DNA from: Ferrovibrio terrae
Lineage (GTDB): Bacteria > Pseudomonadota > Alphaproteobacteria > Ferrovibrionales > Ferrovibrionaceae
Length of the DNA: 64,000 nucleotides
Assembly (NCBI RefSeq): GCF_007197755.1
Contig: NZ_CP041636.1
Coordinates: forward strand, 1,400,001-1,464,000
Reading direction: 5' to 3'
The notes beneath the pieces were generated by a model, which was not told the origin of the DNA, searched no databases, and saw nothing but the letters and a program-made list of their open reading frames with translations. Positions within the stretch are counted from its first letter, which is position 1. Each line of letters opens with the position of its first letter. The translations under genes were made by a program, and so were the position numbers. Of the stretch, positions 4,662 to 60,298 are shown piece by piece.

Positions 4662-7337
4662 TTGGCCGGCGGCATTCAGACCTACAACAAGAAACGCGAT
4701 TTCCGGAAAACGGCGGAGCCGCGCGGCGAGGTGGGCAAGCCCTCGAAGGGCCTGCCGAAATTCGTCATCCAGAAACACGATGCCTCGCATCTGCATTACG
4801 ACTTCCGCCTCGAAATCGGCGGCGTGCTGACCAGCTGGGCTATCCCGAAGGGCCCGAGCCTCGATCCCGGTGAAAAGCGCCTCGCGGTGCGCACCGAAGA
4901 CCATCCGATGAAATACGGGTCGTTCGAGGGCACCATCCCCGAAGACGAATATGGCGGCGGCACGGTGATGCTGTGGGATCAGGGCACCTACAAGCCGGCC
5001 GGCAATCCGCGCGAGGGCCTGAAAAAGGGCGACCTGAAATTCGAACTGCGCGGCAAACGGCTGCGTGGCAGTTTCGTGCTGGCCCGCATGCGCCCGCGCG
5101 GCAACGAAAAGCGCGAGAACTGGCTGCTGATCAAGCATCGCGACGCCACGGCACGGCCGGGCAGCAAGGATGCCGTGGTCAAGGAGCATACCGAGTCCGT
5201 CGAGACCGCCCGCGCGATGACAGAGATCGCCGAGGGCGAGGCCGTCTGGCATTCCAGCCGGACAGGTGCGAAGAAGACCGGCAAGACGACATCCCGCAAG
5301 CTGAAAGAGGAAAAGGCCGTCGCACCTCCGAAGCGGCGTATCGCCAGTGTCGATGTGGCGAAACTGAAAGGTGCAAAGAAGGGCCCCCTGCCGGCGAAGA
5401 TTTCGCCACAGCTCGCGACCCTGGTGGAGGAGCCGCCACCGGGCAAGGGCTGGATCAGCGAGATCAAGTTCGATGGCTACCGCATGGTGGCGCGCATCAA
5501 CAACGGCAAGGTGAAAATCTACAGCCGCAACGGCAATGTCTGGACCACCAGGCTGCCGACCATCGCCAAATCGTTGGCCAGGCTGAAGGTGAAGCAGGCC
5601 TGGCTCGATGGTGAAATCGTCGTGCTGGACGATGAGGGCAAGAGCAATTTCAGCAAGCTGAAAGATGCCCTGGGAGGCGAAGACCAGCGCAGCATCTTCT
5701 TCTTCGCCTTCGATATCCTGTATCTCGATGGCTACAACACCGCGGGCTGCAGCCAGATCGACCGCAAGCGGCTGCTGGACTCCGTGCTGGGCGATACGCC
5801 GCCAGCTTTCATTCGCTACAGCGATCATATGGCCGAGGCACCGGAGGCGATCCAGCACCGCGCCTGCCAGATGCATCTGGAAGGCATCATCGTCAAGCAG
5901 GCGGATGCGCCTTACCGGCAGGCGCGCACGCGCAACTGGCTGAAGCTGAAATGCGTGCAGCGCGAAGAATTCGTCGTGATCGGCTACACCGATCCGCAGG
6001 GTACGCGTACCGGCTTCGGTGCGTTGCATCTGGGCTATTACGACAAGGGTGGCGAACTGCATTACGCCGGCGGCGTCGGCACCGGCTTCAACACGAAGAA
6101 GCTGGTGGCGATGGAAAAGACGTTGTCGAAAATGACGCGGCGCATTCCGCCGGCGATCTGGATTCATGGCGAGAAACCACCCGCCAAAATGCACTGGGTA
6201 CGGCCCGAGATGGTGGTGGAGACCCAGTTCATCGACTGGACCGGGGCCGGGTCGGTGCGCCATGCGGTCTTTATGGGCATCCGCGACGACAAGCAGGCCA
6301 CGGATGTGGTGCGCGATCCGCCGACGGAAGCGAAAAGCCGGTTCAGCGGCACCGGCACCATTGTGCGCGCCGCCAAAGCCAAGCCGAAGACGAAGAAAGC
6401 CAAGACGCCGCCGAAGGCGCGCAAGGACGTGCCGGAGATCATCGACAACCGGGGCGCCGACGATGGCGCGGTGCGGCTGACCCATCCCGACAGGATTCTC
6501 TGGCCCAGACAGAAGCTGACCAAGCAGGACCTGGCCGACTACTGGGAGCGGGCGGCGGTTTTCGCCTTGCCCTTCATCGCCAACCGCCCGCTGGCGCTGG
6601 TGCGTACCCCGGACGGCATCGACGGCGAGCAGTTTTTCCAGAAGAAAATCAGCCGCGGCTTTCCGAAGCAGATTCTCGATCTGGAACTGGAGGGCGAGCA
6701 GCTCATCGCCATCGACGGGCTGGACGGATTTCAGGCGCTGGCGCAGATGTCGGCCATCGAACTGCATCCCTGGGGCAGCAGCATCGAGGACATCTCCGCA
6801 CCGGATGTCATCGTCATGGACCTCGATCCCGATGCCGGCCTCGACTTCGAGGATGTCATCCAGGCCGCGCGCGACCTGCGCGATGCGCTCAAGTCGGTCG
6901 GGCTGACCGCCTTCTGCAAGACCACCGGCGGCAAGGGGCTGCATGTCGTCGTGCCCTTCCAGCCCGAACTCGGCTGGGATGAGGTGAAGGCCTTCGCCCG
7001 CTCGATCGCGACCGCCTTTGCCACCTCCGATCCGAAGCGCTTCACCGATACGCTGGCGAAAAAGGCGCGCAAGGGACGCATCTTCATCGACTATCTGCGC
7101 AACGGCCGCGGTGCGACGGCGGTGGCTCCGTTCAGTCCGCGCGCGCGGCCCGGCGCCACGATTGCCATGCCGCTGACATGGACGCAGGTCAAACCCGGCC
7201 TCGATCCGGCCGACTACACCATCCAGCTTTCCGAAAAGCAGCTGCGCGCCGGCGCGGCGGCCTGGAAAGAGTATTTCGACGTGCAGAAAAAACAGCGCAT
7301 CACCGCCAAGATGCAGCGCGCGTTCAAGTCCATCTAG
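4662..7337 (+). CDS. ligD: Multifunctional DNA ligase D (non-homologous end joining)
   Basis: An 891-residue three-domain LigD. The N-terminal phosphoesterase domain (about 1-180) carries HDASHLHYDFRLE. The ATP-dependent ligase domain (about 240-560) has the nucleotidyl motif EIKFDGYR, with Lys269 as the expected adenylated lysine. The C-terminal primase-polymerase domain (about 595-885) starts LTHPDRILWPRQKLTKQDL and holds the catalytic acidic motif VMDLDPD. This domain order is one of the arrangements known in proteobacteria. The start is a TTG at 4662 behind GGAGCGGAG; no nearer ATG fits the conserved N-terminus. With ku 11 nt downstream it forms the two-component bacterial NHEJ system. 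Confidence 0.96.
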   Translation: MAGGIQTYNKKRDFRKTAEPRGEVGKPSKGLPKFVIQKHDASHLHYDFRLEIGGVLTSWAIPKGPSLDPGEKRLAVRTEDHPMKYGSFEGTIPEDEYGGGTVMLWDQGTYKPAGNPREGLKKGDLKFELRGKRLRGSFVLARMRPRGNEKRENWLLIKHRDATARPGSKDAVVKEHTESVETARAMTEIAEGEAVWHSSRTGAKKTGKTTSRKLKEEKAVAPPKRRIASVDVAKLKGAKKGPLPAKISPQLATLVEEPPPGKGWISEIKFDGYRMVARINNGKVKIYSRNGNVWTTRLPTIAKSLARLKVKQAWLDGEIVVLDDEGKSNFSKLKDALGGEDQRSIFFFAFDILYLDGYNTAGCSQIDRKRLLDSVLGDTPPAFIRYSDHMAEAPEAIQHRACQMHLEGIIVKQADAPYRQARTRNWLKLKCVQREEFVVIGYTDPQGTRTGFGALHLGYYDKGGELHYAGGVGTGFNTKKLVAMEKTLSKMTRRIPPAIWIHGEKPPAKMHWVRPEMVVETQFIDWTGAGSVRHAVFMGIRDDKQATDVVRDPPTEAKSRFSGTGTIVRAAKAKPKTKKAKTPPKARKDVPEIIDNRGADDGAVRLTHPDRILWPRQKLTKQDLADYWERAAVFALPFIANRPLALVRTPDGIDGEQFFQKKISRGFPKQILDLELEGEQLIAIDGLDGFQALAQMSAIELHPWGSSIEDISAPDVIVMDLDPDAGLDFEDVIQAARDLRDALKSVGLTAFCKTTGGKGLHVVVPFQPELGWDEVKAFARSIATAFATSDPKRFTDTLAKKARKGRIFIDYLRNGRGATAVAPFSPRARPGATIAMPLTWTQVKPGLDPADYTIQLSEKQLRAGAAAWKEYFDVQKKQRITAKMQRAFKSI

Positions 7338-9195: not shown

Positions 9196-9272
9196 TGGCG
9201 TCCCCGGAGAGATTCGAACTCCCGACCCGCTGCTTAGGACGCAGCCGCTCTATCCAGCTGAGCTACGGAGAC
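9196..9272 (-). tRNA. tRNA-Arg (anticodon CCU)
   Basis: The minus strand folds into a full cloverleaf of 77 nt including an encoded 3' CCA. The acceptor stem is GTCTCCG with CGGGGAC. The D-arm is closed by GCTC and GAGC. The anticodon stem GCTGC/GCAGC closes the loop GTCCTAA, giving anticodon CCT after the invariant T33. The T-arm contains GTTCGAATC. It would read AGG arginine codons, which should be rare in this GC-rich genome. Confidence 0.97.
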
Positions 9273-54146: not shown

Positions 54147-54740
54147 TCACTGCACCGGCCGCGCCTCTTGCCGTTCAGCCGGCACCAGCGGCGGCACGCC
54201 GTAGCCGATATCGATGAAGCGCATGCCGTCGCCTTCGACATATGAGTCCGGGTCGAGCGGCTGCTTGCGGCCCGCCGTGTCGGCGAGCCCGGTGGCGCAG
54301 CACAGGATCAGGCTGGATTGCGCGGCGCCGTCTTCATAGAGCGGCGCGCCGGTGAATTCGACCGGCAGCACGGCGCCGTCGGGGAAGCGCAGCCAGTAAT
54401 AGATCAGCACCCCGGCCGGCTGGGCGGCCTGCGCGATGGTCAGCGTGGCGCGCCAGCTGCGGTTCTCTTTCGAGGTCAGGTCGAGATAGTTCATCCCGGT
54501 CAGATCAAAACCGATCTTCTCGATGATGGTACGGCCGACATTCTCCATGCGGATGTCGTCGGCGGAGCGGATGTTGAGCAAGAGACAACTATCGGCCAGC
54601 GCGCCGAGGTCGCCCTTGGACAGGTCGCTGCGCTGCGGCAGGCGGCGCGCACCGCGCCAGCCCTGCCAGATCGCGAAGAACTGCCGCGCCTGCTGCGACA
54701 GCGGCGTTGGCAGTGTATGCAGAAAATCACCCGACCCCAT
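54147..54740 (-). CDS. PAS_5-domain protein (first of a pair)
   Basis: A 197-residue protein with a single PAS_5 domain: FFAIWQGWRGARRLPQRSDL, then ENVGRTIIEKIGFDLTGMNY and LPVEFTGAPLYEDG. It ends with FIDIGYGVPPLVP. The domain is typical of alphaproteobacterial soluble proteins of unknown role. It has the same length and order as the next gene at 54794-55387, so the two are tandem duplicates. There is no output domain; it probably acts through protein contact. Confidence 0.85.
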   Translation of the reverse strand: MGSGDFLHTLPTPLSQQARQFFAIWQGWRGARRLPQRSDLSKGDLGALADSCLLLNIRSADDIRMENVGRTIIEKIGFDLTGMNYLDLTSKENRSWRATLTIAQAAQPAGVLIYYWLRFPDGAVLPVEFTGAPLYEDGAAQSSLILCCATGLADTAGRKQPLDPDSYVEGDGMRFIDIGYGVPPLVPAERQEARPVQ

Positions 54741-54793: not shown

Positions 54794-55387
54794 TCAGAAT
54801 GCCGGCAGCATGTGGCGCGGCGTGGAGGGATCGGCGGGCGGGATGCCGAAGCCGAGATCTATGAAGCGCATGCCTTCGCCGACCAGCCAGGAATCCGGAT
54901 CGACGACATCGTTGGGTCGCGGCGGCACCAGCGGTGTGCAGCAGCCGGCCATCAGGCTGACCATGCCGCTGCCATCGTCGTCGCAGAACGGCGCGCCGGC
55001 GCATTCGATCGGCAGCACGCCGCCATCAGGGTAGCGCAGCGGATAGTAGAGGACGCTGCCGCAGGGCTGCAGCGCCTGTTCGATGAACAGCCGCGCGCGC
55101 AAGGCACGGTTCTCGGGATTGGTGATGTCGAGATAGTTATGGCCGGTAAGGTCGAAGCCGAGATACTGGCGTATGCCGTCGCCGATCGAGATGATGCGGA
55201 TGTCGTCGCGGTGCCGCAGCTCCATCACGATATGGTGGGTCCCGAGCCTGGCGACCTGCAGATCGCGGCGTTCAGGCAGGCGGCGACCACGCCGCCAGCT
55301 GTGCCAGGTGGCAAAGAACTGCCGGCTCGCCGGCGACACCGGCCCCGGCAGACGTGCCAGAAAATCCGCGCCGGAGACATCGTCCAT
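54794..55387 (-). CDS. PAS_5-domain protein (second of a pair)
   Basis: A 197-residue paralogue of the previous protein. The block FFATWHSWRRGRRLPERRDL, then IGDGIRQYLGFDLTGHNYLD, PIECAGAPFCDDDG and FIDLGFGIPPADP align along the full length. AGGACAGGGGGG before the ATG at 55387 sets the start. The two genes are about 50 bp apart on the same strand. Whether they form a heterodimer is unknown. Confidence 0.85.
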   Translation of the reverse strand: MDDVSGADFLARLPGPVSPASRQFFATWHSWRRGRRLPERRDLQVARLGTHHIVMELRHRDDIRIISIGDGIRQYLGFDLTGHNYLDITNPENRALRARLFIEQALQPCGSVLYYPLRYPDGGVLPIECAGAPFCDDDGSGMVSLMAGCCTPLVPPRPNDVVDPDSWLVGEGMRFIDLGFGIPPADPSTPRHMLPAF

Positions 55388-55481
55388 GCGCCCCCCTGTC
55401 CTGAACCTCAACAGGTCCCGGAAAATTATACCCGATACGTCCTAACTGCCCAGTTAAAAAATCACTGTCATAAATGGCCAA

Positions 55482-56576: not shown

Positions 56577-57380
56577 TTACGTGGTTTTGGCTGTGGTGTC
56601 CGGCCGCCAGACCAGCAGCCGGTTTTCAATACGGGTGACAATGGCATCCAGTATGATCACGACGATGGTCAGGATCAGCATGCCCGAGAAGACGCCGGTG
56701 ACGTCAAACACGCTTTCGGCTTCGTGAATCTTGTAGCCCAGCCCCGCCGACGAGCCGAGATACTCGCCCACCACGGCGCCGATCAGCGCGAAGCCGACGC
56801 TCGTGTGCAGCGAGGAGAACATCCAGGTCAGCGCCGCCGGCCAGTAGACATGGCGCAGCAGCTGGCGCTCATTCATGCCCAGCATGCGGGCATTGGCCAG
56901 CACGGTGGGGCTGACTTCCTTGACGCCCTGGTAGACATTGAAGAAGACGATGAAGAAAACCAGCGTGAAGCCCAGCGCCACCTTCGACCAGATGCCAAGG
57001 CCGAACCACAAGGCGAAGATCGGCGCCAGCACCACGCGGGGCAGGGCATTGGCCGCTTTCACATAAGGGTCGAACACGGCAGCCAGCAGTTCGCGGCGGG
57101 CAAAGGCGAAGCCGACAACAATACCGGCGCCGGCGCCGATGCCAAAGGCGAGCACGGTTTCCAGCAGCGTGATGCCGAGATGGCGCCAGAGCGTGCCGCC
57201 GAGGATGTCTTTCCAGGTGCGCGCCAGCACATCCAGCGGCGTGGAGAAGAAGAAGGGCGCAAACAGCGGCTTGCCGTTGGCCATCGGCACGGTGGTGAGC
57301 AGATGCCAGGCCACCAGGAAGGCGACGCCGACCAGAACCTGCAATGCGACCAGAGTGGAGCGTTTCATGCCGTTCTTCAT
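56577..57380 (-). CDS. ABC transporter permease (SsuC/TauC-like)
   Basis: A 267-residue permease with about six membrane segments. The family EAA loop is NARMLGMNERQLLRHVYWPA, preceded by RVVLAPIFALWFGLGIWSKV. It pairs with the ATPase at 57377-58252 (4-nt overlap) and the receptor at 55543-56550 (26 nt downstream). Confidence 0.92.
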   Translation of the reverse strand: MKNGMKRSTLVALQVLVGVAFLVAWHLLTTVPMANGKPLFAPFFFSTPLDVLARTWKDILGGTLWRHLGITLLETVLAFGIGAGAGIVVGFAFARRELLAAVFDPYVKAANALPRVVLAPIFALWFGLGIWSKVALGFTLVFFIVFFNVYQGVKEVSPTVLANARMLGMNERQLLRHVYWPAALTWMFSSLHTSVGFALIGAVVGEYLGSSAGLGYKIHEAESVFDVTGVFSGMLILTIVVIILDAIVTRIENRLLVWRPDTTAKTT

Positions 57381-58252
57381 TGCGGCTGGGCCTCTTCACC
57401 CTGGGAATAGGCCTTCTGCACTTCGACGCGCAAGCTCGCCCAGATCGCCTTGTGGATGGCGTGGAACGCCGGCTCGGTGCGGATTTCGGCAATGTCGCGC
57501 GGCCGCGGCAGCTCGACGCGGAAATCGCCGACGATGCCCGCCGCAGGTCCGGCCGACATCACCACCACGCGATCCGACAGCGCAATGGCTTCTTCCAGGT
57601 CGTGCGTCACGAACATCACGGCCTTCTTATTGGCGGCCCACAGATCGAGCAGCAAATTGCCCATGATCTGCCGGGTCTGCGCATCCAGCGGGCCGAAAGG
57701 CTCATCCATGAGAAGGATCTGCGGATCGCGGATCAGCATCTGCGCCAGCGCGACGCGTTTGCGCTGTCCGCCCGACAGCATGTGCGGATAGCGCTGCGCG
57801 AAACCCTTCAGGCCAACGCGGGCGAGCCAGTCCTGCGCACGCTTCAGCGCTTCGGCACGCGGCACACCCTGCGGTTCGAGTGCGACAGCGACATTGTCGA
57901 TCGCGGTCTTCCACGGCATCAGCGCATCGGCCTGGAACAGATAGCCCGCTTTGGCATTCAGGCCCGACAGACCTGCGCCCTGGATATCGACACTGCCGGC
58001 CGACGGCTTCAGCAGGCCGGCGGCGGCATTCAGCAAGGTGGATTTGCCGCAGCCGGTCGGGCCGACGACCGAGACGAATTCACCTGGCGACACCGTCAGG
58101 TCGATGTTGCGGACCGCGCAATGCTGCTCGCCGGTCTTGAGCTCAAAGGTGATATCGAGGCCGCGCAGGCCGACATCGGGCGTGGCGGCTGAAGCGCCGG
58201 ACGCACCCTGGACGGCGAAGGCGGGGGCTGATGCAACAGAGCCCTGAGACAA
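57377..58252 (-). CDS. ABC transporter ATP-binding protein (SsuB/TauB-like)
   Basis: A 291-residue ATPase with a 30-residue Ala/Ser-rich N-terminal extension. Walker A is VVGPTGCGKSTLLNAA, the Q-loop is AGYLFQADALMPWKT, the signature is LSGGQRKRVALAQML (with Lys after GGQR) and Walker B is ILLMDEPFGPLDAQT. First gene of the NMT1-type importer; the next start overlaps its stop in an ATGA. Confidence 0.92.
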   Translation of the reverse strand: MSQGSVASAPAFAVQGASGASAATPDVGLRGLDITFELKTGEQHCAVRNIDLTVSPGEFVSVVGPTGCGKSTLLNAAAGLLKPSAGSVDIQGAGLSGLNAKAGYLFQADALMPWKTAIDNVAVALEPQGVPRAEALKRAQDWLARVGLKGFAQRYPHMLSGGQRKRVALAQMLIRDPQILLMDEPFGPLDAQTRQIMGNLLLDLWAANKKAVMFVTHDLEEAIALSDRVVVMSAGPAAGIVGDFRVELPRPRDIAEIRTEPAFHAIHKAIWASLRVEVQKAYSQGEEAQPQ

Positions 58253-58373
58253 AAGATTTCCTCCAAAAACGGTCCGCGTCTTGGCGCGCGGCGAAACCGC
58301 AACCCTAACGATTGCGGCGGTGCGAGGTAAAGCGCCGGGGGCGGATCAGTGCATCGCTTTCGACTCGTTTTGC

Positions 58374-58460
58374 TTCGTTTTGGTTCGTGGCTGTTCGTAC
58401 GTGTTCGCTGGCGTTCGTACGGGTTCGTGGCGCTTCGCGCGGGTTCGTAGCGGTTCGGAG
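58374..58460. repeat. Array of nine TTCG decamers with exact 10-bp period
   Basis: TTCG occurs at 58374 and every 10 bp to 58454, with a one-mismatch copy (CTCG) at 58364. The flanks of TTCG vary (TGG/TGG, CTG/TAC, GTG/CTG, GCG/TAC, GGG/TGG), so only the core and the spacing are kept. It is the reverse-complement counterpart of the CGAA array at 20389-20494 and lies between the ABC ATPase start and the ArsR gene. The rest of the 58253-58619 gap holds nothing else recognised. Confidence 0.88.
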
Positions 58461-58619: not shown

Positions 58620-58970
58620 ATGCCTGCCGCCGTCACCAGGGCCGATCCGCTCAGCACCACCTTTGCCGCCCTGGCCGATCCGACCCGGCGCGCGATCCTG
58701 GCGCGCTTGAGCCAGGGCGATGCCTCGGTCGGCGAACTGGCCGCGCCGTTCGCGATGAGCCAGCCGGCGATCTCGAAACATCTGAAGGTGCTGGAACGCG
58801 CGGGCCTGATCACGCGGGGCCGCGAGGCGCAGTGGCGGCCGTGCAAGCTGGACGCCGCACCCTTGCGCGCGGCCAACAACTGGCTCGAACATTATGCGGC
58901 TTTCTGGTCCGGCAGTTTCGACCGGCTCAAGACGCTGGTGGAAACCTCGCCGGACGACGGCAAGGCGTAA
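58620..58970 (+). CDS. ArsR-family transcriptional regulator
   Basis: A 116-residue winged-helix protein: TFAALADPTRRAILARLSQG, then VGELAAPFAMSQPAISKHLK and VLERAGLITRGREAQWRPCK. It lacks the CxC metal site of ArsR/SmtB, so it belongs to the non-metal group that usually sits before an SRPBCC (AHSA1) gene. No such partner follows here; the next gene is convergent. The region before it contains the TTCG array. Confidence 0.9.
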   Translation: MPAAVTRADPLSTTFAALADPTRRAILARLSQGDASVGELAAPFAMSQPAISKHLKVLERAGLITRGREAQWRPCKLDAAPLRAANNWLEHYAAFWSGSFDRLKTLVETSPDDGKA

Positions 58971-59025: not shown

Positions 59026-59289
59026 TTATACCGCGTGCAGCATCACCTGGCCTGCGCCGGCGGTCAGCCGGATGGCGCCTTCGGCCAGCCGCACGCGTTC
59101 CATCGCATTGTCGATCTGGCGGTCGTCGATCAGGGTTTCGCCGCGCGCGATCAGCGTGCGCGCGGCATCGCGGTTCGTGGCCAGGCCGGCCAGGACGAGC
59201 AGCTCCGCCAGCGAGACGCCTTCGGCGAGATGGGATTTCTGCAGCGATACCTGCGGCAGATCAGCGAGAATAGTGGTTTCGGTAGTCAT
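59026..59289 (-). CDS. Orphan S4-like RNA-binding protein resembling the TyrRS C-terminus
   Basis: An 87-residue protein. The part LAEGVSLAELLVLAGLATNR, then DAARTLIARGETLIDD and RQIDNAMERVRL matches the S4 fold as found at the end of tyrosyl-tRNA synthetases. The N-terminal MTTETTILADLPQVSLQKSH also resembles the linker before that domain. The catalytic synthetase part is absent and no remnant is seen. TGGAGACC, 7 nt before the ATG at 59289, is a good ribosome-binding site but is locked in a predicted hairpin. A leader peptide with YYYWF lies about 94 nt upstream. Confidence 0.7.
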   Translation of the reverse strand: MTTETTILADLPQVSLQKSHLAEGVSLAELLVLAGLATNRDAARTLIARGETLIDDRQIDNAMERVRLAEGAIRLTAGAGQVMLHAV

Positions 59290-59292
59290 GAT

Positions 59293-59383
59293 GGTCTCCA
59301 GTTTGATGGCTTTCCTGAAGCCGTCGGGTCGGAGACCCTGAGTCAAGAACCGCAAGCCGCCGACCTCGGCGGCTGCAATGGTT
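59293..59383 (-). promoter_or_regulatory. Candidate leader-peptide-controlled translational switch
   Basis: On the minus strand: a long hairpin at 59348-59383 directly after the leader stop (AACC...GCAGCCGCCGA / TCGGCGGCTTGC...GGTT); then GGGTC-TCC-GACCC (59338-59326), a small hairpin; and GGTCTCC (59337-59331) that can instead pair perfectly with GGAGACC (59299-59293), which contains the ribosome-binding site of the S4 gene. The last two are mutually exclusive because they share GGTCTCC. Confidence 0.55.
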
Positions 59384-59454
59384 CAGACAAAACCCTGCGC
59401 GCCGCCCGTATGGGAGGAGATAAACCAATAATAATAGTTGGCCGCGTGGATCAT
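59383..59454 (-). CDS. Putative aromatic leader peptide (YYYWF)
   Basis: A 23-codon frame from the ATG at 59454: MIHAANYYYWF followed by ISSHTGGAQGFV and a TGA at 59383. Three Tyr codons, one Trp and one Phe in a row are expected in a leader that senses charged aromatic tRNAs. The stop codon is at the foot of a strong hairpin, and the S4-domain gene follows 94 nt later behind a sequestered ribosome-binding site. The leader's own ribosome-binding site is weak; a longer frame open from 59577 exists but is unlikely. Confidence 0.5.
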   Translation of the reverse strand: MIHAANYYYWFISSHTGGAQGFV

Positions 59455-59650
59455 GGCGGCGATTAAAGCGAAGCGGATCGCCGCCGTCAATCGCCTTGTG
59501 AGCCGGCGAGCGATTGTGTGATGGCGGTAACGTTGGCTCTGTCCATTGCCCCTCTTTGTCATGCCCGGGCATGACACGGATGTTGGTCAAGGTTGGGGAT
59601 GACACGGGGGGCGGTTTCCTTTGTCACCCCTCAGTCTTAGTTTGTGACCC

Positions 59651-60298
59651 ATGACAGCGACCCCCGACACTCCCAGACCCGATCCGCGCCGCCATATGCC
59701 GGCCACCCTGCGCAACCGCGATGCCATCCTTGCGGTGCTGCAGGAGACCCTGCCGCGGCAGGGTGTTCTGCTCGAGATCGCCAGCGGCAGCGGCGAGCAT
59801 GCCGCCTTCATGGCGCCGCAGCTCACACCGCTGGTCTGGCAGCCGAGCGATTATGAGGCGGAGAACCTGCCGTCCATCGACGCCTATGCCGGTGACAGCA
59901 GGATCGCAAATGGGGGCTCCGGCAACATCCTGCCGGCGGTGCAGCTGGATGTGACGCAGCCGTCCTGGCCGGTGCAGGCCGGCATCGCGGCGCTGCTCTG
60001 CTGCAACATGATCCATATCGCGCCCTGGGCAGCCGCCGAGGGGTTGTTCCATGGTGCTGCGATCATCCTGACGAAGAACGCGCCGTTCATTCTCTATGGT
60101 CCGTTCCGTCGCAACGGCGCACATACAGCGCCGTCCAATGCTGCCTTCGACGACAGCCTGCAAAGCCGCAACGCAGACTGGGGCGTGCGCTGCCTCGACA
60201 CTGACGTTCTGCCGCTGGCGCAACGAACTGGTTTCGTGCTGGAACGTATCGTCGAGATGCCGGCCAACAATCTCACTGTTATATTCCGCAAGCTGTAA
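59651..60298 (+). CDS. DUF938 family SAM-dependent methyltransferase-like protein
   Basis: A 215-residue protein of the class I methyltransferase fold. The SAM motif is GVLLEIASGSGEHAAFMAPQ (about residues 38-57); later WQPSDYEAENLPSIDAY, CCNMIHIAPWAAAEGLF and LYGPFRRNGAHTAPSNAAFD are DUF938 hallmarks. The substrate is unknown. It starts about 20 nt before the YdjM-like gene, with which it probably forms an operon. Confidence 0.88.
   Translation: MTATPDTPRPDPRRHMPATLRNRDAILAVLQETLPRQGVLLEIASGSGEHAAFMAPQLTPLVWQPSDYEAENLPSIDAYAGDSRIANGGSGNILPAVQLDVTQPSWPVQAGIAALLCCNMIHIAPWAAAEGLFHGAAIILTKNAPFILYGPFRRNGAHTAPSNAAFDDSLQSRNADWGVRCLDTDVLPLAQRTGFVLERIVEMPANNLTVIFRKL

Follow-up and report, generated by a model that had tools for sequence, protein, structure and literature searches.

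A conserved aromatic leader RNA with proposed alternative hairpins precedes a gene for a stand-alone domain of predicted TyrRS-tail fold in Alphaproteobacteria

Why is a gene for a stand-alone S4-type RNA-binding domain preceded by a tiny reading frame crowded with aromatic codons, and what might the RNA arms between the two accomplish? The question is raised by the minus strand of the window, i.e. the whole stretch of 64,000 nucleotides analysed here, which is part of one 4.26-Mb contig of the source genome (labelled G000). Leader and S4 gene are flanked by an ArsR-type gene at 58620-58970 and a DUF938 gene at 59651-60298, both on the plus strand; leader, hairpins and S4 gene look like a single transcription unit. 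The original prediction had described a 23-codon frame with Tyr-Tyr-Tyr-Trp-Phe, a hairpin and the heptamers GGTCTCC and GGAGACC, all of which are present on the minus strand as listed below. The letters also bear out that GGTCTCC can pair either with the local GACCC or with GGAGACC, which lies 3 nt before the ATG. In the order of transcription the features are:

59485-59490, minus strand: -35-like hexamer TTGACG, identified by its coordinates; TTGAC is placed likewise in 27 of 31 leaders of the family
59462-59467, minus strand: putative -10-like hexamer TTTAAT, with a 17-nt spacer to TTGACG, from the alignment of clade A (see below)
59383-59454 including the stop codon, minus strand: leader peptide ORF MIHAANYYYWFISSHTGGAQGFV, 23 codons (59454-59386), followed by its stop (59385-59383)
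59422-59436, minus strand: control codons Tyr-Tyr-Tyr-Trp-Phe, leader codons 7-11
59397-59407, minus strand: arm 2, GGGCGGCGCGC, putative opener of the main hairpin; begins 15 nt past the last control codon and is complementary to arm 3
59352-59376, minus strand: main hairpin GCAGCCGCCGAGGTCGGCGGCTTGC, arms 3 and 4, from folding and covariation; terminator-like in most relatives, here without a U-tract
59355-59366, minus strand: loop plus 3' arm of the main hairpin, AGGTCGGCGGCT, proposed anti-sequestor for the anti-ribosome-binding-site arm, from a swap test
59331-59337, minus strand: arm 5, GGTCTCC, the sequestor, complementary to the ribosome-binding-site arm; from compensatory changes and a swap test
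59326-59330, minus strand: arm 6, GACCC, which can pair locally with GGGTC and belongs to the proposed anti-sequestor target
59293-59299, minus strand: arm 7, GGAGACC, separated by 3 nt from the start codon and containing the ribosome-binding site
59026-59289, minus strand: orphan S4-type gene, 87 aa, ATG at 59289; by predicted fold a stand-alone TyrRS-like C-terminal tRNA-binding domain

The only run of at least five F/W/Y among the 127,996 six-frame residues of the window is YYYWF; given an aromatic fraction measured at 0.052, chance would produce about 0.05 of them. The leader RNA (166 nt) folded better than 200 of 200 dinucleotide shuffles (z -3.37). A simple promoter scan of the window did not call the pair TTGACG/TTTAAT because its rule demands an A as second letter of the downstream hexamer. 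Judged from the sequence, transcription likely starts at the leader ATG, i.e. the peptide would be read from a leaderless RNA. A terminator scan called no terminator in the window.

Is the arrangement conserved? A search with the S4 protein combined with covariance models detected leader and orphan S4 gene in 10 of 10 genus genomes examined. These were divided into clade A, to which the window belongs (G000, G001, G002, G005, G008), and clade B (G003, G004, G006, G007, G009). In the five genomes of clade A the RNA is nearly identical from the aromatic codons through the main hairpin, and both GGTCTCC and GGAGACC are invariant in the alignment (5/5). The aromatic runs read NYYYWF, NFYYWF, NYYYWF, QYYWF and YRFWHYF. 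The residues SHTGGA that follow are kept in the clade A peptides, and the DNA that encodes them, where arm 2 forms, is identical in 5/5 genomes even at third codon positions. The stop codon of clade A is located 21 nt further downstream than in 16-codon leaders, and the spacing from the aromatic codons to arm 2 is still 15. Clade B has a diverged S4 protein and 16-codon leaders which end with WYFTLLT, WYFTLLP or WYFTLHT before the stop codon. Chance is ruled out because congeners keep the pair GGTCTCC/GGAGACC and the rest of the genus carries a divergent version. The observation itself is real, and the locus is a conserved, putatively regulatory element.

To describe the element across the class, covariance models were built and extended stepwise. 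The strong matches of model R1 were five close relatives only, and L036, L041 and L044 were chosen by eye among its weak matches. Model R2, built from eight leaders, was used to search 385 genomes of the class. It matched 11 genomes at E <= 0.001: three were already known, seven contained new leaders and one was a partial match (L070), at whose locus no leader was visible. A degenerate pattern run over named GTDB genomes gave 34 loci, all of which were scored with R2. Eight were confirmed, i.e. those in Reyranella sp. CPCC 100927, Vineibacter terrae, Desertibaculum subflavum, three alphaproteobacterial MAGs, Aestuariispira insulae and Thalassospira lucentensis, the sequences of the last two being the same as those of G226 and G282. 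Model R3 was built from 20 leaders and matched 28 of the 385 genomes. After inspection L105, L106, L107, L119 and L121 were accepted; the last two were taken, in spite of weak model scores (E 6.4e-4 and 9.4e-4), on account of their ORFs and downstream genes. Forty genomes of the order of G282 contributed L125, L133 and L138. Thirteen weak R3 matches without an aromatic leader were rejected (L108-L113, L126, L128, L130, L131, L134, L136, L137), and L075, L092 and L101 were removed as duplicates of L067, L044 and L068. The family-level and order-level searches covered the same 18 genomes. The final set consisted of 31 leaders, that of the window included, all from Alphaproteobacteria; within the sampled class the element is rare. 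Counts on this set are a description of the family, not an unbiased test.

Which genes follow the leaders? Pfam was run on representatives. An orphan S4 gene lies downstream of 12 leaders (10 in the genus, 2 in the genus Thalassospira) and a GNAT acetyltransferase gene downstream of 11 (L036, L044, L063-L066, L074, L076, L089, L098 and L104; Reyranella, Vineibacter, Desertibaculum, MAGs and others). The remainder are TyrRS (2), trpS (2), P-loop kinase (2), prephenate dehydrogenase (1) and class II DAHP synthase (1). Outside the genus of the window GNAT acetyltransferase is the commonest leader-borne gene of the set. In 27/31 the leader start is preceded by TTGAC, which begins 35-42 nt upstream. 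Tyr is present in 28/31 leader peptides, the exceptions being one trpS and two kinase leaders, and arm 2 follows the last aromatic codon (within codons 1-16) at a distance of 14-16 nt, again in 28/31; both the aromatic and the spacing counts are biased upwards because the models include the leader region and weak matches were chosen by eye. The original prediction had named Tyr, Trp and Phe as control codons. Aromatic codons are indeed conserved, and the assignment can be narrowed: the shared codon is Tyr, usually as Tyr-Phe. Outside clade A most peptides stop a few residues past the aromatic codons (mostly at 16 codons) and these residues vary.

A U-tract follows the main hairpin in 24/31 leaders and in 0/5 of clade A. 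Terminator scans of three loci agreed with these calls, L107 and L067 being examples with a U-tract and the window the third locus. Because 24/31 leaders carry the U-tract, transcription control is probably a trait of the family. S4 genes that lack leader or arms had been named as evidence that would speak against the proposal; an aromatic leader is present at 12/12 orphan S4 loci examined, and in one of them, G006, the arms are in doubt (see below), which partly fulfils this counter-evidence.

The leaders L106, L119 (trpS) and L121 (class II DAHP synthase) are built along similar lines, their codons being Trp or a mixture of aromatic ones. These three suggest one ancestral leader design that was retuned to different amino acids. 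In two other leaders of the set, L133 (plus strand, G424) and L138 (minus strand, G282), at about 1440-1680 of the leader's strand, a P-loop kinase gene stands behind a related leader, MENVV...DARIFTA...RMAG and stop. These kinase leaders lack Tyr codons; their hairpin is T-rich and resembles a terminator, and a stem again covers the ribosome-binding site. The kinase assignment is to Pfam AAA_33, run on the protein of L133.

Next, do the RNA arms pair as proposed? When eight leaders were aligned with MAFFT, 95.3% of the cells of the main hairpin and the ribosome-binding-site stem were standard pairs, and both sides had changed in 4/16 pairs. The covariation score was 0.176 compared to 0.087 in shuffles (0/500 as good), and slid controls reached at most 0.047. 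A 20-row alignment, which was fitted to the model and hence leans towards it, had 22 double-change cells (0/500 shuffles) and a score of 0.210 versus up to 0.066 in slid controls. GGTCTCC/GGAGACC is replaced by GGCTTCCG/CGGAAGCC in Desertibaculum and by CGGTT-CCTT/AAGG-AACCG in Thalassospira. The comparison of genomes that the original prediction had proposed thus came out in its favour, with conserved aromatic codons, both arms of the ribosome-binding-site stem retained and compensatory changes between them.

For swap tests 17 of the 31 leaders were used; near-duplicates and the leaders of DAHP synthase, trpS and kinase genes were left out. Own sequestor arms paired at -19.9 kcal/mol and foreign arms at -15.8 kcal/mol (0/5000 draws as good). 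Taken leader by leader, no foreign arm was as good in 6/17, and in G006 and G016 the own arm did not outperform the average foreign arm. A preference for own partners was also obtained when the main hairpin's loop plus 3' arm was swapped against arms 5/6 (-16.9 versus -14.4 kcal/mol, 3/5000), in a test on the same sequences in which this anti-sequestor was first noticed. Its clearest case is GCCAGGG with CCCUGGC in the leader of the Aestuariispira TyrRS. The swap of arm 2 against arm 3 was flat (own -15.1, foreign -15.3 kcal/mol; 3443/5000 as good), in keeping with the near-invariant letters of these arms.

In folding models, freeing the loop plus 3' arm raised the predicted exposure of the ribosome-binding site by more than 0.05 in 13/31 leaders, lowered it in 2 and changed it by 0.05 or less in 16, and own arms outdid foreign arms in this gain (15/5000). 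Alternative hairpins had been predicted with a local GGGTC-TCC-GACCC hairpin as one of the two states. The stem over the ribosome-binding site covaries, as that proposal would have it; the local hairpin is not universal, its best version having at most 3 bp in 3/31 leaders and lying elsewhere in the tail in several others. The competitor of the sequestor is likely the loop plus 3' arm of the main hairpin, not the local hairpin. A shuffle test of ribosome-binding-site pairing in single sequences was weak leader by leader because GC-rich RNA pairs anyway. Taken together, covariation supports the pairings 3:4 and 5:7, and that of the loop and arm 4 with arms 5/6 appears lineage-specific.

G006 deserves separate mention. 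By eye, a GATGGC/GCCATC pairing over the start site is possible. Its own sequestor pairing was no better than foreign ones (7/14 others as good), the site was predicted to be 0.75 unpaired and the U-tract after the main hairpin is retained. The stem over the ribosome-binding site of G006, as modelled, is doubtful.

What does the orphan gene encode? The original prediction had compared its product to the tail of TyrRS. With the window's copy, Pfam PF22421 (TyrRS C-terminal domain) scored 18.9 bits, below the cutoff of 27, and nothing in NCBIfam came near a cutoff. The best PDB match by sequence was the TyrRS 6bqy (E 0.0018), over residues 324-383, i.e. in the tail. Among relatives, PF22421 was matched in two, below cutoff, and PF01479 (S4) in the Thalassospira copy, above cutoff; the copy of G008 matched no Pfam family. 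An AlphaFold2 model with 12 orphans as input (pLDDT 82.1, pTM 0.67) was compared with the PDB by Foldseek. All 21 matches with E <=0.001 were TyrRS, e.g. 1h3f (E 4.4e-6; TM relative to query length 0.79, over 81 alignment columns); next came ribosomal protein S4 with a TM of about 0.5. The predicted fold is that of the TyrRS C-terminal domain, which upholds the comparison and extends it: according to the model the product resembles the entire tRNA-binding tail of TyrRS and not just an S4 motif. dN/dS was 0.04-0.52 in clade A (10 pairs), 0.00-0.42 in clade B (10 pairs) and 0.18 in the Thalassospira-genus pair. Judged by these ratios, the orphan S4 gene is under purifying selection.

A tail without a synthetase poses the question of its origin. 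We scanned ten genomes for TyrRS. The leader-TyrRS genomes G011 and G226 have two TyrRS genes each, the orphan-S4 genomes G000, G282 and G424 have one, as do four others, and G016 (73% complete) has none. Among 41 TyrRS loci (40 genes) the leader is found only at the second copies of G011 and G226. Second TyrRS matches were also obtained in G075, G126, G134, G143, G172, G189, G310 and G378, some of which may be split genes. At eight housekeeping tyrS loci of the genus no such leader was visible by eye (one locus was partly masked, one had little upstream DNA), and model R3 found none at the tyrS of G000 (L155). A profile of the orphan domain was run on 372 class genomes. The short open frames of G000, G282, G003 and G006 came out on top, all with the leader. 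Among the profile matches listed, to about E 1e-13, there was one further short frame (G322), the others were of TyrRS length, and no orphan S4 without a leader appeared. The 87-aa frame of G322 was rejected as an orphan as it runs into the contig end (match 5459-5698, end 5714).

Pairwise identities failed to separate leader-TyrRS from housekeeping TyrRS. In a tree of full-length TyrRS the two leader-TyrRS grouped together with support 89/58 and one very long branch, and an 86-column domain tree placed nine orphans on one side (53/11). Orphans and leader-TyrRS formed one clade in 0% of 200 bootstrap trees; the single clade was not rejected (p-AU 0.144). From the leader common to both and from the numbers of TyrRS genes we hypothesise that the orphan domain may have descended from a leader-TyrRS; the trees do not decide.

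How might the element work? We consider it probable that it is a ribosome-sensing leader RNA which reads charged tRNA-Tyr, often together with Phe or Trp, and controls the start of S4 translation; in most relatives the leader probably controls transcription too. The peptide ORF would be translated from the very 5' end of the RNA. With enough aminoacyl-tRNA the ribosome would reach the stop codon and cover arm 2. Arms 3 and 4 would then form the main hairpin, arm 5 (GGTCTCC) would pair with GGAGACC and the gene would be off. When charged tRNA is scarce, the ribosome would stall at the Tyr (Phe/Trp) control codons and leave arm 2 free. Free arm 2 could pair with arm 3 and break the main hairpin, and the released loop plus 3' arm would pair with arms 5/6, by which the ribosome-binding site in arm 7 is exposed and the gene is turned on. 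The footprint of a ribosome stalled on the control codons would leave arm 2 just free, that of a ribosome at the stop codon would cover it; the gap of 14-16 nt between aromatic codons and arm 2 fits these dimensions. In relatives with a U-tract the same stall would also remove the terminator. In the window the translational step alone seems to remain. Translation of the leader, stalling, the direction of the switch and the 2:3 pairing are what we infer from this layout. The simplest role of the S4 product would be to bind tRNA-Tyr, its presumed ligand, in trans when tyrosine is short, because by its predicted fold it is a lone TyrRS C-terminal tRNA-binding domain.

Could the locus be explained with less? 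A classical transcription attenuator would use the main hairpin as terminator and stalling to form an antiterminator, with the stem over the ribosome-binding site as a weak extra. The U-tract in 24/31 leaders, e.g. L107 and L067, fits such a device, so do typical target genes (tyrA, trpS, DAHP synthase) and G006, which has a U-tract and a doubtful ribosome-binding-site stem. However, the U-tract is missing in the window as well as in its four nearest relatives, no terminator was called in the window and the gene is still under purifying selection; moreover, the stem over the ribosome-binding site covaries in a lineage-specific manner. As an account of the locus an attenuator of this kind appears unlikely to us. 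Alternatively, the leader may sense slowed or drug-stalled ribosomes, like the leaders of antibiotic-resistance genes, and GNAT and S4 would be stress proteins. Although GNAT acetyltransferase is encoded downstream of 11/31 leaders and other uORFs are described to sense ribosome-targeting drugs in the available part of PMC12121999, codon identity is conserved (Tyr in 28/31) and the downstream set contains tyrA, TyrRS, trpS and DAHP synthase, which makes a general stress sensor quite improbable.

Two further explanations concern the gene products. Were the small ORF to encode a functional micropeptide, e.g. a membrane peptide, conservation of the RNA would be secondary. Clade A retains SHTGGA past the aromatic run, and a leader peptide of Sinorhizobium, peTrpL, acts in trans according to the accessible text of PMC7298713. 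Yet outside clade A the peptides end soon after the aromatic codons with varied residues, and the SHTGGA DNA, identical including third positions in 5/5, makes up arm 2; we give a micropeptide very little credence. The S4 gene, on the other hand, might be the dying relic of a leader-controlled second TyrRS, devoid of present function. The gene counts are in line with this, two TyrRS genes in the two leader-TyrRS genomes and one in three orphan-S4 genomes of the ten scanned. The dN/dS values of both clades and of the Thalassospira-genus pair, and the presence of the gene in 10/10 genus genomes examined, argue against decay, and we regard a functionless relic as highly improbable.

The ribosome-sensing switch can be carried one step further, albeit tentatively. 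The aromatic leader family would be a relay in which one stall removes a terminator and releases a ribosome-binding site. In two lineages its target would be a TyrRS tail without catalytic capacity, which is made on starvation, acts in trans on tRNA-Tyr and is left over from an inducible second TyrRS. This combined reading is possible, and we would not call it probable.

Is such an element known? At gathering score Rfam reported a tRNA at 9199-9272 as the sole match in the window; the leader matched no family, T-box included, and neither did the leaders of four relatives. A permissive Rfam search of 59200-59600 gave two matches with E 1.1 and 1.2 only. In the open-access literature, to which the search was mostly confined, no description of this leader/TyrRS-tail arrangement was found. 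In erm and cat translation-attenuation leaders a stalled ribosome opens a hidden ribosome-binding site; here the signal would be charged tRNA instead of a drug, and a multi-arm relay would take the place of a simple hairpin. Trbp111 and Arc1p are free-standing tRNA-binding proteins that work with synthetases. They resemble the S4 protein in that a tRNA-binding domain is detached from a synthetase; their fold is a different one, and we know of no report that they are induced by starvation. The predicted fold of the S4 protein matches the TyrRS C-terminal domain (PF22421; 1h3f, 1h3e) over nearly its whole length. Unlike that domain it is encoded alone, has no catalytic domain and stays below the Pfam cutoff.

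The closest regulatory relatives are trp-type attenuators, above all peTrpL/rnTrpL of Sinorhizobium. As far as the accessible text of PMC7298713 goes, they share the short ORF with control codons and have alternative hairpins such as are proposed here; rnTrpL starts with the ATG of trpL, similar to the apparent start at the leader ATG here, and the biosynthetic and synthetase genes downstream in our relatives are of the same kind. Different are the Tyr/Phe codons, the extra sequestor of the ribosome-binding site and the anti-sequestor apparently taken from the main hairpin, and in the window the missing U-tract and a TyrRS-like tail as downstream gene. For Caulobacter the available part of PMC4117421 reports 375 leaderless mRNAs and, ahead of trpS, a leader peptide, and the trpS leaders of our set may overlap with those known from there. 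Attenuators before trpS and leuS were predicted in some Streptomyces (PMC1262725, available part). The accessible portion of PMC2965389 contained no tyrosine attenuator. As far as searched, the working principle is of a known kind, and the amino acid, the proposed relay through the main hairpin and the target gene are new.

The presence of related elements before tyrosine, tryptophan and other genes in Alphaproteobacteria suggests a starvation switch. If true, there would be an alphaproteobacterial leader-RNA regulon which links tyrosine supply to synthesis (tyrA, DAHP synthase) and charging (TyrRS, trpS) and which includes GNAT and the orphan S4 protein as uncharacterised effectors. It would also provide a way to ask what the tRNA-binding tail of a synthetase does alone, as regulation predicts when it is needed and the fold predicts its ligand.

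Two minor observations were made elsewhere in the window. An imperfect tandem repeat at 58365-58457, with units of about 10/20 bp such as GTTCGTGGCT and GTTCGTACGG, is located upstream of a minus-strand ORF (57377-58252) that by eye is ABC transporter ATPase-like. Further, the minus-strand ORFs 54147-54740 and 54794-55411, about 200 aa each, look by eye like tandem paralogues and have MRFIDIGYG/MRFIDLGFG in common.
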